DNA from: Mycobacterium sp. Root265
GTDB taxonomy: Bacteria; Actinomycetota; Actinomycetes; Mycobacteriales; Mycobacteriaceae
Assembly: GCF_001428895.1 (NCBI RefSeq)
Contig: NZ_LMJA01000022.1
Location: 271,916 to 335,915, forward strand
Length of the DNA: 64,000 nt
Reading direction: 5' to 3'
Below are positions 54,596 through 60,576 of this stretch, in pieces. Both the position numbers and the translations under genes were made by a program. The notes beneath the pieces are model-generated. The model did no database searches. It was not told the origin of the DNA and was given only the letters and a program-made list of their open reading frames with translations. Position 1 is the first letter of the stretch. Each line of letters starts with the position of its first letter.

Positions 54596-56116
54596 TCAAA
54601 AGGGCGGGTCGCTGTTGTTCTCAATGAGTTCTGCTGCGTTGCGCTGCCGCTCGGCTTTGATCCTTTGTGCACGATCCTGCGCGCGGGTGCGTTTTCTGAC
54701 CGGCATCCTGCTATCGCGGTTGGTGTCGTTGATGAGGGTGATGGCGCGTTTTCGTGGGATGGGGGTCTCGATGTTCCAGTGCGGGAACATGATTGCTGCG
54801 CCGGGGGCCTTGGTGTAGGTGTGCCCGGTGGGTGCTGACCATTGGATGCGGCCATCGGGTTTCGCTGCCGGTTCCCAACCACAGAACGTCTTGATCAGAT
54901 GGTGCAGACGGCACAGTGGTGCCAGGTTGCCCGGGTGGGTGGCCCCGGCGGGCCACGGAGTCAGATGGTCGAGGTCACAGCGGTGCGCGGCCCGGTTGCA
55001 GCCCGGGAAGCTGCACGTCATGGCGCGCATCCGGACGAACGCGGTCAGTGCGGTCGAGGGCCGGTATTGGCGTTCGGCCGGCAGATCCGCGCACTCGGAG
55101 AGCGGCTTCACTTTGGCGCCGGTCGCGACGAGTTCGGCCAGCATGGCGGCGGGGATGATGGCGCCGTCGAGCATCACCCCGGGGCTGGGATTGCAGGCCG
55201 CGGGTGGGGTGTTGGCCGCGGGTTCGGCGCGGGCCGCAGGTTCGGCGGGCTCGTCGGGTTCGGATTCGGCTGCCGGAGTCTGCTGCTCTTTCTCCGGCGC
55301 AGTCTCGGTCTCGGCGGGCGCCGTTTCCGGGGTGGCCGCGGTGCCCGGGCTGGTGTGCCGCGGAGACTCTTGACCGGCGGAGGGCACCTGGTCGGTCAGC
55401 ACATAGATGGTCACTGCGCCCGAGCGCGGATCTTTCCCGCCGCCCTCACAACCAGCACCCCCACACGCGCACGCCAGCCGCTCCAGTTGCGGACCCACCG
55501 CACCCAACGCGGCCAACGCCGCAGCACGCAGCTCGCCCCGCGCACGGGGATCATTCGGGCAGACGGTGTCGGCCAGGTCGTTGAGGCGCTGTTCGAGGAT
55601 CTTCTTGTCGGTGACACGCAGCCGACCCCAGAACGAGGACACCCCATTGGGGTCGTCCTTGTCGTCGAACTCCACGTGAAGATCTTTCGCGTTGCGCTTG
55701 GAGCGCACGACGGCTTCGGGGTCGAATTTCTCCACCCACAGATCGATCGCGCCGATCAACTGTTTCTCCGAATGCGCCCCGTACTCGCCCGCTTCGCCGG
55801 CGATGGCGGTATCGATCAGCACGAGCGCGTCGTCGTCGACGACCTGGTGGGTGCGCCAGGTGATCGCATCGATCACCGCCATCGAGATCGCACCCTTCCC
55901 AAATAGTGCGGCGGTGCGGGGCAGCCGGTCGCGTAGGGCCTGGGCGATGCGCATCTGCTTGGACGCCGCGTGGGTGTTCAGATTGCAAGCCGCCGCCACC
56001 GCGGCCTGAGCCCACGCCCAACCATCGATGACCTGATGGGCGATCACGTCGTCCTCGTCATCGCACTGGCGGGCCACCACCTCACCGATGAACGCCAACC
56101 GCGCCGCGGCAGCCAT
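54596..56116 (-). CDS. DUF222/HNH endonuclease (13E12 family), 5' end probably frameshifted
   Basis: The open frame encodes 506 residues of a 13E12-repeat protein. The DUF222 domain fills the first 220 residues. A Pro/Glu/Ala-rich linker follows (about 235-300). A C-terminal HNH nuclease has CSFPGCNRAAHRCDLDHLTPW and NLAPLCRLHHLIK. At the 5' end the natural start looks lost. A frame beginning ATG 56195 gives MFEVLDRAALAGLSDEALIS-AVT, the usual family N-terminus, then shifts frame near 56125, where bases continue CTG GAG GCG ATG GCT (LEAMA) in this frame. The ATG at 56116 may thus be an internal methionine. These genes are multi-copy in mycobacteria; function unknown. Confidence 0.8.
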   Translation of the reverse strand: MAAAARLAFIGEVVARQCDDEDDVIAHQVIDGWAWAQAAVAAACNLNTHAASKQMRIAQALRDRLPRTAALFGKGAISMAVIDAITWRTHQVVDDDALVLIDTAIAGEAGEYGAHSEKQLIGAIDLWVEKFDPEAVVRSKRNAKDLHVEFDDKDDPNGVSSFWGRLRVTDKKILEQRLNDLADTVCPNDPRARGELRAAALAALGAVGPQLERLACACGGAGCEGGGKDPRSGAVTIYVLTDQVPSAGQESPRHTSPGTAATPETAPAETETAPEKEQQTPAAESEPDEPAEPAARAEPAANTPPAACNPSPGVMLDGAIIPAAMLAELVATGAKVKPLSECADLPAERQYRPSTALTAFVRMRAMTCSFPGCNRAAHRCDLDHLTPWPAGATHPGNLAPLCRLHHLIKTFCGWEPAAKPDGRIQWSAPTGHTYTKAPGAAIMFPHWNIETPIPRKRAITLINDTNRDSRMPVRKRTRAQDRAQRIKAERQRNAAELIENNSDPPF

Positions 56117-56256
56117 CGCCTCCAGCAGTCACCGCCGAGATGAGCGCCTCATCGCTCAACCCGGCGAGTGCGGCCCGATCCAAGACTTCGAACATACGTG
56201 CGAGTGTAATGAAGGGGTACGACAAGTCCCCCGAACCGACATCCGGGCACGAAAAA

Positions 56257-56276
56257 GGGAAGGCCTTCGCCTTCCC
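56257..56276 (-). terminator. Hairpin with T-tract on the minus strand
   Basis: GGGAAGGC (56257-56264) pairs with GCCTTCCC (56269-56276) around CTTC, an eight-base stem. On the minus strand the stem is followed by TTTTTC (56256-56251), the look of an intrinsic terminator. Oddly, it lies upstream of the minus-strand 13E12 gene rather than after a gene, so it would block antisense readthrough from the right. On the plus strand the hairpin is followed by ACTCTCAATTT, weaker as a terminator. Confidence 0.45.
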
Positions 56277-56299
56277 ACTCTCAATTTATAGCGCACCCC

Positions 56300-56332
56300 G
56301 GGGCTTGCGGCAAGACCCGGGTCATGCCGCAA
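56300..56332 (+). promoter_or_regulatory. Candidate rifamycin-associated element and overlapping palindrome
   Basis: GGGGCTTGCGGCAAGACCC at 56300-56318 is a 19-base inverted repeat: the two nine-base arms around a central G pair at eight of nine positions. The core CTTGC-G-GCAAG agrees with the rifamycin-associated element as I remember it from Streptomyces and related actinobacteria; the exact consensus must be checked. A second palindrome overlaps it: TTGCGGCA, A, GACCCGGGTC, A, TGCCGCAA (56305-56332), symmetric at 26 of 28 bases. A TTTATAG -10-like hexamer region lies just upstream near 56285-56291, so the element sits in the early promoter/leader of the glycosyltransferase operon. Confidence 0.65.
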
Positions 56333-56377
56333 AATCGCTCGCCTGAAAGAAAATTCACCACACCAGGGGGCCACACA

Positions 56378-57559
56378 ATGCGAGTTCTGCTGTACACGTT
56401 CGGGTCGCGCGGGGACGTCGAGCCACTGCTGGCGCTGGCGCTCGAACTGCACAAGCACGGCGCCGACGCCCTTATCTGCGCGCCGCCGGACTTCACCGAT
56501 CTGCTCGAGGCGGCGGGGGTGCCGATGGTGCCGACCGGACCCTCGGTGCGCGAGCTGGTGCACGTCCAGAAGGCCACCCATAAGGACGCGCCTGCACTCG
56601 CCGCAGCATTGGTGGCCGGCCAGTTCGAGTTGCTCGATACCGCCACGGAATGCGACGCCATCGTCGCGACCGGTTTGATGCCTGCCGGGATGCGCTCCAT
56701 CGCCGAACTGCTCCACGTGCCCTACCGATGCGTCATGTTCACCCCGCAGGTGCTGCCGTCTCCGGACTACCGCCCGCTGCCGCGGCCGGGGAAACCGTTT
56801 CCCGATGGTGAGACCGACAACCGGGTGCTGTGGGATCTGGACGCCGAGAAGATCCAGGTGCTCTACGGCCCCGCGCTGAACGACAATCGGACAGCGAGAG
56901 GCCTGGAACCGGTGGACAACGTCCGAGACCACACGTTCACCGAATCCCCCTGGCTCGCGTCCGACCCGGTGCTGAGCCCGCTACACGCCCACCCCGGCTT
57001 CGACGTCGTGCAGACCGGCGCCTGGATCGTGCCCGATGAGCGCCCGCTACCACCCGATCTGCAGGCGTTCCTCGACGCCGGCCCGCCGCCGGTGTTCGTC
57101 GGCTTCGGCAGCGTGACCGCACCCGAGGAGGCCGCCCAGGTGGCCATCGAGGCGATCCGGGCCCATGGCCACCGGGTGCTGATCGGCAGCGGATGGGCGG
57201 GCCTGAGCACGGCCGATCCCGACAGTTTCGTCATTGGCGAGGTCAACCAGCAGGCACTTTTCCCGCGGGTGGCGGCGGTGATACACCACGGCGGCGCGGG
57301 CACCACGACAACCGCGGCGCGGGCCGGAGCACCGCAGGTGGTGGTTCCGCAGATCGTCGATCAGCCCTACTGGGCGGGCCGGGTCGCCGACCTGGGCATC
57401 GGGGTGGCGCACTACGACCCGACGCCGACCGTCCATTCACTCGCGGAGGCGCTTAGGCTGGTACTGACCCCCGAGACCCACACCAGAGCGATCGCCGTGG
57501 CCGGCACCATTCGCACCGACGGGGCGGCAAGGGCCGCAAAGATGCTGCTGAACGCGTGA
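56378..57559 (+). CDS. GT1 glycosyltransferase, candidate rifamycin glycosyltransferase (Rgt-like)
   Basis: A 393-residue UDP/NDP-sugar glycosyltransferase of family GT1 (GT-B fold). The start MRVLLYTFGSRGDVEPLLAL binds the acceptor side, and the C-terminal donor motif HHGGAGTTTTAARAGAPQ begins at residue 303 followed by PQIVDQPYWAGRV. The same fold is used by glycopeptidolipid rhamnosyltransferases and by Rgt enzymes that glycosylate and inactivate rifamycin. With a RAE-like element 45 bases upstream and a HelD-type gene directly downstream, the rifamycin role is the better guess. AGGGGG lies eight bases before the ATG at 56378. Confidence 0.8.
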   Translation: MRVLLYTFGSRGDVEPLLALALELHKHGADALICAPPDFTDLLEAAGVPMVPTGPSVRELVHVQKATHKDAPALAAALVAGQFELLDTATECDAIVATGLMPAGMRSIAELLHVPYRCVMFTPQVLPSPDYRPLPRPGKPFPDGETDNRVLWDLDAEKIQVLYGPALNDNRTARGLEPVDNVRDHTFTESPWLASDPVLSPLHAHPGFDVVQTGAWIVPDERPLPPDLQAFLDAGPPPVFVGFGSVTAPEEAAQVAIEAIRAHGHRVLIGSGWAGLSTADPDSFVIGEVNQQALFPRVAAVIHHGGAGTTTTAARAGAPQVVVPQIVDQPYWAGRVADLGIGVAHYDPTPTVHSLAEALRLVLTPETHTRAIAVAGTIRTDGAARAAKMLLNA

Positions 57560-57588
57560 ACCAGAACTTACGAAACAACAAGGGGCAC

Positions 57589-59772
57589 ATGACAACCCAG
57601 GACTACCAGGCAGAACTAGAGGCCGAGCGCGGGTACGTGGCCGCGCTGTATGACCGGCTGGATGGCGAACGGGCGCGCGCCAAGGACCGCTATTCCGCGG
57701 CGCTCAAGGGCGATATCGACAAACAGGACGGGTCCACCCTGGTCAACCGCGACGCCGACGTGCGTGCGCTGGGCAAAGAGGTCAGCAGGCTCGACGTGGC
57801 CGACAGTGGACTGTGCTTCGGCCAACTCGAGAGCATCGAAGGTGAGCGGTCCTACATCGGGCGGCTCGGGTTGTTCGACAACGAGAACGACTACGAGCCG
57901 CTGCTACTGGACTGGCGGGCACCGGCGGCCCGGGCGTTCTATGTGGCCACCGCCGCCAGCCCGGAGAACATGCGGCGCAGGCGCCAGTTCCACACCCGCG
58001 GGCGCAAGGTCCTCGACTTCACTGATGAGGTGCTGGGCCGTCCCGACGCCGGTGAGCGCGGCGACGCCGCCCTGCTGGCGGCCGTCAACGCACCGCGCAC
58101 CGAGGGCATGAGCGATATCGTCGCGACGATCCAGGCCGAGCAGGACGAGATCATCCGGCTCGATCAATCCGGGGTGCTCGTCATCGAGGGCGGCCCGGGC
58201 ACCGGCAAGACAGTGGTGGCGCTGCACCGGGTGGCCTACCTGCTGTACACCCAGCGCGAGCGGATGGAGCGGCACGGCGTGCTGGTCATCGGCCCCAGCC
58301 CGGCGTTTCTCAACCACGTCGGCCGGGTGCTGCCCTCACTCGGTGAGACCAATGTCGTGTTCATGACCACCGGCGACCTCGTGCCGGGGCTGCACACCAC
58401 CGCCGAGGATGCCCCGGATGCCGCGCGGGCCAAGGGTTCCCTGAAGATGCTCGACGTCCTCAAGGCCGCCGTCGCCGACCGTCAGCGCACCCCGGAGGAT
58501 CCGCTGCCGATCAAGCTGGCCGACGTCACCGTGGAGATCAACGCCGAGGCCGCCGCCTGGGCGATCCAGGAGGCACGCGAGGCGGGGCTGCCGCACAACG
58601 ACGCCCGGGCGGTGTTCACCGATGTCATCACCTGGGTGCTCACCGAACGCGCGATCGCGCGAATCGGCAAGGGCTGGTTGACCCGTGACGACAAGCAGGC
58701 CTGGGAGCATCTGCGCGCCGAACTGCTCGATGAGCTCGAAGATCACGATGCCTTCAAGGCTGCGCTGGACGAACTGTGGCCGGAACTGACACCGGAATCG
58801 CTGCTGGGTGCCCTCTACGAATCCCCCGAACGACTCAAGGCCGCCGGTGCCGACGAGTCGTTGTGGCGACAGGACGGGCGGGCCTGGACGGTGTCGGACG
58901 TCCCGCTGCTCGACGAGCTGGTGGATCTGCTCGGCGGGATCAAACCCGATGCGAACGCCGAGAAGGAACGCCAGGAGGAAGCCGCGTACGCCGCGGGCGT
59001 GCTGGATCTGATGGTGGCCCGCGAGGACCTGATGGACGATGAGGACCATCTGATCGCCGCGGATCTCATCGACGCCGAGGAGCTGGCCGACAGGTTCATC
59101 GAGCAGGACAACCGCGAACTGGCCGAACGCGCAGCCGCGGACCGGGATTGGACCTACCGCCACGTGGTGGTCGACGAGGCCCAGGAACTCTCGGAGATGG
59201 ATTGGCGGGTGTTGATGCGGCGCTGCCCTGCGCGATCCTTCACCATCGTCGGCGACCTGGCGCAACGTCGTTCCGAAGCGGGTGCACGGTCCTGGGACAC
59301 CATGCTGGCGCCGTATGTGAAGAAGCGCTGGGTGTATCGGCCGCTGACGGTGAACTACCGCACCCCGGCGGAGATCATGGCCGTCGCCGCCGCGGTGCTC
59401 GCCGAGTTCGCGCCAGGTATCCAGCCACCGGAATCGGTACGCTCGTGCGGCGTGCAGCCGTGGTCGAGGAAGGTGAGCGAAGACGAACTCGACACGGCGA
59501 TCAAGGAATTCGTCGAGGACGAGGCGACCCGCGAGGGCACCAGCGTGGTGATCGGCCCGCCCGGGGTGCCCGGCACGGTGCCGGCCGCACTGACCAAGGG
59601 ACTGGAGTTCGACGCCGTGCTGGTGGTTGCCCCGGAGCGGATCATCGCCGACGGCCCACGCGGGGCGGCCGAACTCTATGTCGCCCTGACCCGCGCCACC
59701 CAGCGTCTGGGCGTGTTGCACCACGGTGATCTGCCGCCGTCACTGAAAGGGCTTGACCTGAATGAAGGTTGA
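57589..59772 (+). CDS. helR: HelD/HelR-type RNA polymerase-associated ATPase
   Basis: A 727-residue protein of the class II HelD family, a superfamily 1 helicase relative. The N-terminal 60 residues are a charged coiled coil (the arm that enters the RNA polymerase secondary channel in HelD). The ATPase motifs are GGPGTGKT at 201-208 and VVDEAQELS later, then GDLAQRRS and, near the end, LTKGLEFDAVLVVAPE. HelD removes polymerase from DNA; the HelR subgroup also releases bound rifamycin. The start is set at 57589 (AAGGGG five bases ahead); a GTG at 57556 overlaps the previous stop but lacks a site. HelR rather than housekeeping HelD is inferred from the element upstream. Confidence 0.82.
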   Translation: MTTQDYQAELEAERGYVAALYDRLDGERARAKDRYSAALKGDIDKQDGSTLVNRDADVRALGKEVSRLDVADSGLCFGQLESIEGERSYIGRLGLFDNENDYEPLLLDWRAPAARAFYVATAASPENMRRRRQFHTRGRKVLDFTDEVLGRPDAGERGDAALLAAVNAPRTEGMSDIVATIQAEQDEIIRLDQSGVLVIEGGPGTGKTVVALHRVAYLLYTQRERMERHGVLVIGPSPAFLNHVGRVLPSLGETNVVFMTTGDLVPGLHTTAEDAPDAARAKGSLKMLDVLKAAVADRQRTPEDPLPIKLADVTVEINAEAAAWAIQEAREAGLPHNDARAVFTDVITWVLTERAIARIGKGWLTRDDKQAWEHLRAELLDELEDHDAFKAALDELWPELTPESLLGALYESPERLKAAGADESLWRQDGRAWTVSDVPLLDELVDLLGGIKPDANAEKERQEEAAYAAGVLDLMVAREDLMDDEDHLIAADLIDAEELADRFIEQDNRELAERAAADRDWTYRHVVVDEAQELSEMDWRVLMRRCPARSFTIVGDLAQRRSEAGARSWDTMLAPYVKKRWVYRPLTVNYRTPAEIMAVAAAVLAEFAPGIQPPESVRSCGVQPWSRKVSEDELDTAIKEFVEDEATREGTSVVIGPPGVPGTVPAALTKGLEFDAVLVVAPERIIADGPRGAAELYVALTRATQRLGVLHHGDLPPSLKGLDLNEG

Positions 59773-59790: not shown

Positions 59791-60576
59791 ATGAGTGCGA
59801 TCGGGCTGGCCAGCAGCAATCCGTACACCGATGACGCGGCCGTCGTCGCCGAGGAGGCGCGGCAGGCGCAGGACCTCGGGTACGCCACCTTGTGGCGGTC
59901 CGGCGACCTGCCGATGATCGCGGCGGCGGTGCGCGCCACCAGCACCATTCCGGTTGCCACCGGGATCATCTCGGTATCGCGGGTGCCGGCCGCCGACGTC
60001 ATCGCCCTGCACGGCGACCTGGAACCGGGCCGGTTCGTGGTGGGAATCGGTGGTGCGCACGGTCCGCGGCCACTGGAGACCATCGGCGGTTATCTGGACG
60101 AACTGGATGCGGCCGGCATCCGCGCCGGAGTACTGGCCGCGCTCGGGCCGAACATGCTGGCGCTGGCACGTGAGCGTGCCGGCGGCGCGTACCCCTACTT
60201 GGTGACGCCCGAGTATGTGGCGCAGGCCCGAGAACAACTCGGGGCAGACCGCACCCTGGCGGTGCTGCAGATGGTGATCCCGCTGACCGATCGCGACGAT
60301 GTGCGCCGGGCGGCATCCGGGCCACTGGAGTTCCTGGCCTGGAAACCGGGCGGGTACCGCCGAAACCTGTTGCGCCAGGGCTTCACCGAGGCCGATATCG
60401 ATCAGGTGAGTGACCGGCTGCTCGACGGCATCACCGCCTGGGGTGAACCGCAGCGCATCGCCGAACGTGTCGCCGAATACCACGCGGCCGGTGCCGATCA
60501 GGTCGTGCTGCGCATCGTCGGTGCGGACGATATCGCCTTGTGGCGGACGAAAATCGCTGCGATGCTGCTGAATTAA
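59791..60576 (+). CDS. LLM-class F420-dependent oxidoreductase
   Basis: A 261-residue luciferase-like (LLM) TIM-barrel protein. It has the expected early strands IGLASSNPYTDDAAVV, the TSTIPVATGIISVSRVPAAD block and HGDLEPGRFVVGIGGAHG; no flavin-domain insert is present. Mycobacterial members use F420 or FMN; the substrate is unknown. A TACCGT hexamer seven bases before the ATG could be a leaderless promoter. It lies 18 bases after helR and may be co-transcribed with it. Its end overlaps the convergent membrane-protein gene by four bases. Confidence 0.85.
   Translation: MSAIGLASSNPYTDDAAVVAEEARQAQDLGYATLWRSGDLPMIAAAVRATSTIPVATGIISVSRVPAADVIALHGDLEPGRFVVGIGGAHGPRPLETIGGYLDELDAAGIRAGVLAALGPNMLALARERAGGAYPYLVTPEYVAQAREQLGADRTLAVLQMVIPLTDRDDVRRAASGPLEFLAWKPGGYRRNLLRQGFTEADIDQVSDRLLDGITAWGEPQRIAERVAEYHAAGADQVVLRIVGADDIALWRTKIAAMLLN

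Follow-up and report, generated by a model that had tools for sequence, protein, structure and literature searches.

How a mycobacterium might place a drug-inactivating enzyme and a factor that rescues RNA polymerase behind one rifamycin-associated element, and how such an element might sense the drug, are the questions raised by a locus of Mycobacterium sp. Root265. Rifamycins are front-line drugs. The locus lies in the window, which is the whole stretch of DNA analysed (64,000 nucleotides; assembly GCF_001428895.1, contig NZ_LMJA01000022.1, positions 271,916 to 335,915 of the forward strand). It consists of a 19-bp palindrome, the rifamycin-associated element (RAE), followed by the genes of a GT1 glycosyltransferase (GT) and of a HelD-type protein, HelR. 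Positions given below are those of the window.

The predicted resistance operon

The segment 56250-59772 is very probably a rifamycin-resistance operon, with predicted drug inactivation and RNA polymerase rescue behind the RAE. It is supported by five features of the sequence: the RAE, the gene order, the protein families, the conserved flanks and the conserved order in relatives. Its core elements are the following:

56300..56318, no strand: RAE, 19-bp palindrome with its centre at 56309, exact and single in the genome
56378..57559, + strand: GT1 glycosyltransferase, Rgt-like, 393 amino acids
57589..59772, + strand: class II HelD / HelR, 727 amino acids, the only HelD found in the genome

The genes are separated by 29 bases (57560-57588), and the repeat, the two genes on one strand and the gap are exactly where the original prediction had them. 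The GT start is 59 bp from the RAE; 56378 is its likely position because an ATG at 56324 would fall between the RAE and the predicted -10 element described below. In the operation proposed, rifamycin would increase transcription from a forward promoter with its -35 element inside the RAE, and a single mRNA would give both the GT, as the probable drug-inactivating enzyme, and HelR, which would remove drug-stalled RNA polymerase and displace the drug. Co-transcription of rgt and helR, induction by rifamycin and the substrate of the GT are the predictions contained in this scheme.

The palindrome, GGGGCTTGCGGCAAGACCC at 56300-56318, is perfect and shows 0 mismatches to the pattern GGGNCTTGCNGCAAGNCCC, the palindromic form that was used in the scans and that we take to be that of the RAE. 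Its flanks resemble those of 151 other RAE places, so the earlier identification of the repeat as an RAE stands. A scan of the window allowing up to 3 mismatches gave 1 match versus 0.75 expected by chance, so only the exactness of the match is informative. The whole genome (6.67 Mb, 30 contigs) contains one exact RAE, the next-best place having 2 mismatches, and a reversed control pattern gave 7 places at 2 mismatches or fewer. Exact RAEs were found in 143 of 248 Mycobacterium genomes, and the reversed control in 1.

HelR passed the cut-offs of both NF041465 (1362 bits; cut-off 1051) and NF041258 (1354 bits; cut-off 1100), and was aligned to Mycobacterium smegmatis HelD (6yxu) over residues 1-723, nearly the whole length. 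In this alignment its primary-channel loop, DLMDDEDHL, keeps the acidic tip, with residues matching D482, D483 and D485 (M. smegmatis numbering), and the DEAQ motif is also kept. D485 of M. smegmatis HelD is reported to clash with rifampicin in the part consulted of a published study (PMC11464796). Judged by these residues, the window HelR retains the predicted rifampicin-displacing loop.

Concerning the GT, the best NCBIfam model was NF000354 (rifamycin-inactivating glycosyltransferase Rgt), with 460.9 bits against a required 800, while a paralog encoded elsewhere in the genome scored 114 bits. Five RAE-linked GTs from Streptomyces and Pseudonocardiaceae scored 478-673 bits, all above the window's GT and below 800, and two mycobacterial GTs without RAE scored 502 (L178) and 450 bits, so RAE-linked GTs and other members of the family cannot be told apart by this score. 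In a tree of 45 GTs, sampled without named Rgt or glycopeptidolipid enzymes and with only four own-genome paralogs standing for the glycolipid-type side, the window's enzyme grouped with 15 other mycobacterial RAE-linked GTs (support 99/99), and the four paralogs fell outside the RAE-linked group on long branches. As far as this tree goes, the enzyme groups with RAE-linked GTs apart from its paralogs, and to that extent the refuting outcome named with the original prediction, a firm grouping with glycopeptidolipid enzymes, did not occur. The equivalog cut-off for Rgt was missed (461 of 800 bits).

That the GT acts on a cell-envelope glycolipid, with its adjacency to helR being accidental, is very improbable. 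Such a role would fit with the closest solved structures, which are the glycopeptide glycosyltransferases GtfA/B/D, and with eight further matches of the GT family in the genome. However, SfLAP genes mark glycolipid loci, and such a gene adjoins not the window's GT but one of the four own-genome paralogs in the tree. The identity of the window's GT to its own-genome paralogs is only 29-36%, and its place in the tree, the linkage to RAEs across many genera and the GT-HelR fusion described in the next section all speak against a glycolipid substrate, which was set aside on the tree and the gene context.

Distribution of the GT-HelR pairing

The pairing was surveyed in the 248 Mycobacterium genomes, with thresholds of E<=1e-100 for the GT and E<=1e-150 for HelR. 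The GT occurred in 46 genomes (47 places) and HelR in 140. HelR came directly after the GT, on the same strand, at 9 of the 47 places (G000, which is the window's genome, G096, G187, G198, G121, G034, G178, G070 and G202), and all nine pairs have an upstream RAE with 0 or 1 mismatch. When 33 of the 47 GT places were read for RAE, 17 had one and 16 did not, the best sequence there having 4 to 7 mismatches. In eight genomes (G033, G039, G065, G066, G079, G081, G144 and G171) the GT is RAE-linked and helR is elsewhere; seven of these separate helR loci were read, each with an RAE of its own at 0-1 mismatch. A class-wide survey covered 394 genomes, and 24 of the 29 GT places outside Mycobacterium were read together with 1.5 kb of each flank: an RAE (0-1 mismatch) was present at 20 and a same-strand HelR downstream at 7, Streptomyces sp. 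ISL-98 (L061) being a named example. Going by gene order, the window operon is a mycobacterial instance of a recurrent actinomycete arrangement. The expectation that the pairing would be notable in a mycobacterium holds in a milder form: it is notable but not unique, since the same order is present in 9 of the 248 Mycobacterium genomes and at 7 loci outside the genus. Divergent helR and rgt genes were also seen, around one RAE in Pseudonocardia xinjiangensis (L042) and around two RAEs in Streptomyces sp. PKU-EA00015 (L087).

One of the nine pairs is a natural fusion. In G202 (L193 845-4162, G202:C9), an Rgt-like GT and HelR form one in-frame open reading frame (ORF), with no stop between them and with an RAE and an upstream inverted repeat, which argues for joint action of both proteins. 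The GT of G202 branches with Streptomyces and Pseudonocardiaceae enzymes (100/98), outside the clade of the window's GT, so GT-HelR coupling probably arose more than once.

Several observations weigh against the operon reading. The genome has an arr gene (G000:C2:111309-111605, L212), with no RAE in the surrounding 1.5 kb or so, and the main defence may therefore lie outside the operon. Since the NF000354 cut-off was missed, the GT is classed as Rgt-like only. A single clade (100/99), nested within the RAE-linked GTs, unites fourteen mycobacterial GTs without RAE; the nesting suggests that the element was probably lost there, and their presence in the same family means that a family member need not act on rifamycin. 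In G200 (L192 / L245), a HelR 89% identical to that of the window is preceded by a decayed GT remnant, and the sequence read there contains no RAE at 4 mismatches or fewer; helR having been kept with a mere remnant, the GT is dispensable there. Finally, no RAE within 4 mismatches was found at 3 of the 14 other mycobacterial helR loci read (L197, L199 and L200, from G011, G040 and G133).

As to the surroundings of these genes, among the RAE-less GTs (L178-L191) that of L190 adjoins a thymidylate synthase gene and that of L180 a dihydroorotate dehydrogenase gene. In L235 (G061) an RAE-like sequence with 4 mismatches, possibly a decayed element, precedes a GT of the RAE-less clade by 59 bp. Upstream of the window operon, a DUF222 ORF (54596-56116) is on the opposite strand, matched there in 6 of 8 relatives read and as a fragment in a seventh. 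A luciferase-like gene (59791-60576), 18 bp 3′ of helR, was considered as a third core gene and rejected; it follows helR in 3 of the 8 relatives read.

The symmetric unit around the RAE

A total of 160 distinct exact RAE places were collected, and their flanks were scored with a matrix derived from 69 places whose orientation was set by a GT or HelR gene downstream. The scores fell into two sets, 152 at +0.8 or more and 8 at -59 or less, and 7 of the 8 look like chance matches in other phyla. The eighth, a Mesorhizobium record (L132), has a low flank score, yet its RAE precedes a rifampin-monooxygenase-like gene; it was left out of the 152. These 152 places are a sample, taken mostly from among the matches listed in a scan of named records, and because the matrix was built on data of the kind that also gave the orientation of the places, there is some bias towards conservation. 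Among the matches listed are 114 places in 112 named loci from 3 phyla and 23 families (108 Actinomycetota, 4 Chloroflexota and 2 Pseudomonadota), the remaining 38 of the 152 being mycobacterial. A downstream ORF was called at 147 of the 152 places, and 136 of these ORFs belong to five clusters (HelR 44, Rox-like 40, Arr 24, Rgt-like 20 and Rph 8), which were named through representatives or members, the monooxygenase representative being below the rif_monoox cut-off (458 of 800). RAEs ahead of arr, a rifampin-monooxygenase-like gene or rph were found in records of Pseudomonadota (L065, L071, L132) and Chloroflexota (L057, L070). An RAE ahead of an MFS efflux-type transporter was seen in Actinoplanes aureus (L026 116-1794).

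The conservation extends beyond the palindrome, and the corresponding predicted elements in the window are:

56305..56310, + strand: predicted forward -35 element (TTGCGG), inside the RAE, assigned by position, with a 19-nt spacer to 56330
56330..56335, + strand: predicted forward -10 element (CAAAAT), start site about 56342
56308..56313, - strand: predicted reverse -35 element (TTGCCG), overlapping the forward -35, assigned by the symmetry of the palindrome
56283..56288, - strand: predicted reverse -10 element (TAAATT), mirroring the forward -10 about the palindrome centre
56252..56276, - strand: terminator-like hairpin (56276-56257) with a T5 tail (TTTTT), starting at the predicted reverse +1 (56276); -16.7 kcal/mol, z -3.1

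The -35 element of promoter 2 of M. smegmatis helD was likewise placed in the RAE in the available part of a review (PMC10719064). With the first RAE base numbered 0 and the centre 9, and using the 150 places without N, the forward hexamer YANNNT was present at 30-35 in 136/150 and the reverse TANNNT at -12 to -17 in 149/150. Both hexamers occupy the stretch 21-26 bp away from the centre, and for each of them a TTG of the palindrome stands at a 19-nt spacer; the median occurrence over the scanned positions was 0. The first base was C in 136/150 forward hexamers and T in 149/150 reverse ones, and the 69 gene-oriented places by themselves had A-17, T-13 and A-12 in 69/69. A held-out set, outside the matrix and fetched by protein rather than by RAE, consisted of 20 class-wide GT loci and 11 mycobacterial helR loci; forward YANNNT was present in 31/31 and reverse TANNNT in 29/31 (19/20 and 10/11, respectively). 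Thus, -10-like elements are found at mirror positions on both strands around the RAE, as expected of a bidirectional promoter, and the 19-mer is, by conservation, the centre of a unit of ~95 bp kept across three phyla. A reverse -10 at 17-nt spacing (TATAAA in the window) was rejected in favour of the 19-nt hexamer TANNNT, near-invariant across loci. A consensus promoter scan, whose rules admit 16-18-nt spacers only, gave no sigma-70 site on either strand.

In many loci a hairpin starts at -24, six bases past the reverse -10. When 26-nt windows of the reverse strand were folded at even starts from -4 to -64, the mean energy had its minimum at -24 (-10.0 kcal/mol; -9.0 at -22, -7.1 at -20 and -26, -6.0 at -28), the remaining starts averaging -1.3 to -5.6 and shuffled -24 windows -5.2; -8 was reached by 88/150. 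The best perfect stem opened at the first base in 56/151, against 8/151 for the next commonest offset, and 27 had no five-pair stem. Held-out loci behaved similarly, with means of -11.5 versus -5.9 shuffled for class-wide GT loci (14/20 reaching -8) and of -7.7 versus -3.9 shuffled for mycobacterial helR loci (5/11 reaching -8). In the 66 best-folding loci the reverse strand is T-rich past the hairpin (0.36-0.53 at -43 to -59; 0.11-0.29 at -60 to -69). The hairpin is not universal, as these 66 include 24/44 HelR, 14/40 Rox-like, 11/20 Rgt-like, 7/8 Rph and 2/24 Arr places, most of the 24 Arr places being mycobacterial. When 29 selected hairpins were aligned with MAFFT, covariation was uninformative, owing to unequal loop lengths with 3′ arms out of register. 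In an arm-matching comparison of the 66 best-folding loci, the 5′ arm matched the 3′ side of its own locus better than those of other loci in 51/66 (means 7.94 versus 7.08; 7.60 versus 6.89 over 31 distinct arms), with a nominal p-value of 3e-8 that must be discounted because the loci are related; besides, an RNA hairpin and a DNA dyad would look alike in such covariation. The arm of the window's clade (9 nt, exceeding its 8-bp stem) matched its own side worse (6.0) than others (6.86).

Drug sensing and related systems

We tentatively propose that the RAE serves as a -35 common to both arms of a symmetric bidirectional promoter with a decoy reverse arm, and that RNA polymerase itself would be the rifamycin sensor, with no need of a dedicated regulator. 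The forward and reverse promoters would share the palindromic -35, so that the polymerase would sit one way at a time; the reverse arm, whose -10 is the better one in that it begins with T in 149/150 places where the forward -10 begins with C in 136/150, would keep the forward promoter shut by firing backwards. Where the hairpin is present, the reverse product would be a self-terminating RNA of ~25-28 nt, the hairpin being nearly the entire transcript, and since it would end at once, occupancy of the reverse arm, rather than its RNA, may be what matters. Sub-lethal rifamycin would halt productive reverse firing and tip occupancy towards the forward promoter. This bidirectional reading is much less sure than the operon itself. 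An RNA-polymerase-based sensor could be conceived by analogy with promoters of Bacillus subtilis and Escherichia coli. The hairpin, both -10 elements and the RAE are found ahead of arr in L065, a Xanthomonadaceae metagenome-assembled genome in which contamination is possible; a complete unit there would suit a self-contained device.

Two other explanations have to be weighed against the bidirectional promoter. The chances come close to even that a dimeric rifamycin-responsive protein binds the palindrome and turns on the forward promoter, by activation or de-repression, with the symmetric flanks of secondary importance. A bound protein would suit an all-or-none palindrome, and GT loci fetched by protein have the 19-mer at 0-1 mismatch (37/57; 30 exact) or nothing closer than 4. 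The conservation also exceeds the needs of a -35, since it includes the outer GGG/CCC arms, and an undiscovered regulator is raised in sections of both a review (PMC10719064) and a research paper (PMC12802891). However, such a regulator leaves unexplained the reverse TANNNT in 149/150 at the exact mirror distance and the hairpin at the predicted reverse +1, and the protein would be needed too in the Chloroflexota and Pseudomonadota records having an RAE with rifamycin genes.

A rather doubtful explanation is that the upstream block acts as a second promoter on the forward strand (P1), as for M. smegmatis helD, with the hairpin as a separate terminator or a DNA site. P1 and P2 starts were mapped for that gene, P1 some 20 bp upstream of the RAE in the same block, as given in the portion seen of the review (PMC10719064), and this counts against the bidirectional promoter, as does the fit of forward YANNNT at -18 (143/150) and -24 (83/150), the latter implying a start about 12 bp before the RAE. 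On the other hand, transcription from the -18 hexamer would start only about 6 bp upstream of the RAE instead of 20, this hexamer leaves the A at -12 (149/150) unexplained, and a TTG occurs at a -35 fitting the -18 hexamer in at most 2/150. Moreover, the distance of the hairpin is fixed across loci with different upstream ORFs.

Actinobacterial rifamycin sensing through the RAE is called unresolved in the consulted text of a 2026 paper (PMC12802891), and the conserved ~95-bp architecture offers a specific proposal that can be refuted. From the operon, and most of all from the natural GT-HelR fusion, it seems that inactivation of the drug and rescue of its target are selected as one unit, mycobacteria included. 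The extended, symmetric RAE may be the new part, and the operon a further, likely functional example of a known arrangement. No description of the extended RAE was found in the literature searched, which did not cover the primary RAE and HelR papers, so an earlier account of the RAE unit, the operon or the fusion is possible.

The window shares the 19-bp RAE and the gene families with the RAE-linked resistance genes of actinomycetes (rgt, rox, rph, arr and helR); these are named singly in what was seen of the review (PMC10719064), whereas the window pairs two mechanisms in one operon. Its GT is like Rgt by best NCBIfam model (NF000354) and by the RAE-linked tree, and differs in scoring below the cut-off and in having a predicted substrate only. 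With respect to HelR MAB_3189c and HelD MSMEG_2174, the window HelR is a near full-length relative of the M. smegmatis protein with the loop kept; M. smegmatis helD is directly behind the RAE region, according to the same part of that review (PMC10719064), whereas here a GT gene lies between. In the B. subtilis helD dual-promoter alarm, as described in excerpts of PMC12802891, a strong antisense promoter with a 19-bp spacer holds helD low until rifampicin relieves it, a relief also seen, more weakly, in vitro. Opposed promoters and 19-bp spacers are common to that system and the predicted RAE promoters, but the former are convergent, whereas the latter, as read here from sequence alone, point away from each other and share a -35. 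Bidirectional promoters of E. coli are repressed in one direction when they fire strongly in the opposite one, and no competition was seen at basal levels, according to the part available of PMC12825309. As is proposed here for the RAE, the site is symmetric and one-way polymerase binding blocks the other direction; those promoters, however, share the -10, whereas the RAE unit would share the -35 region.

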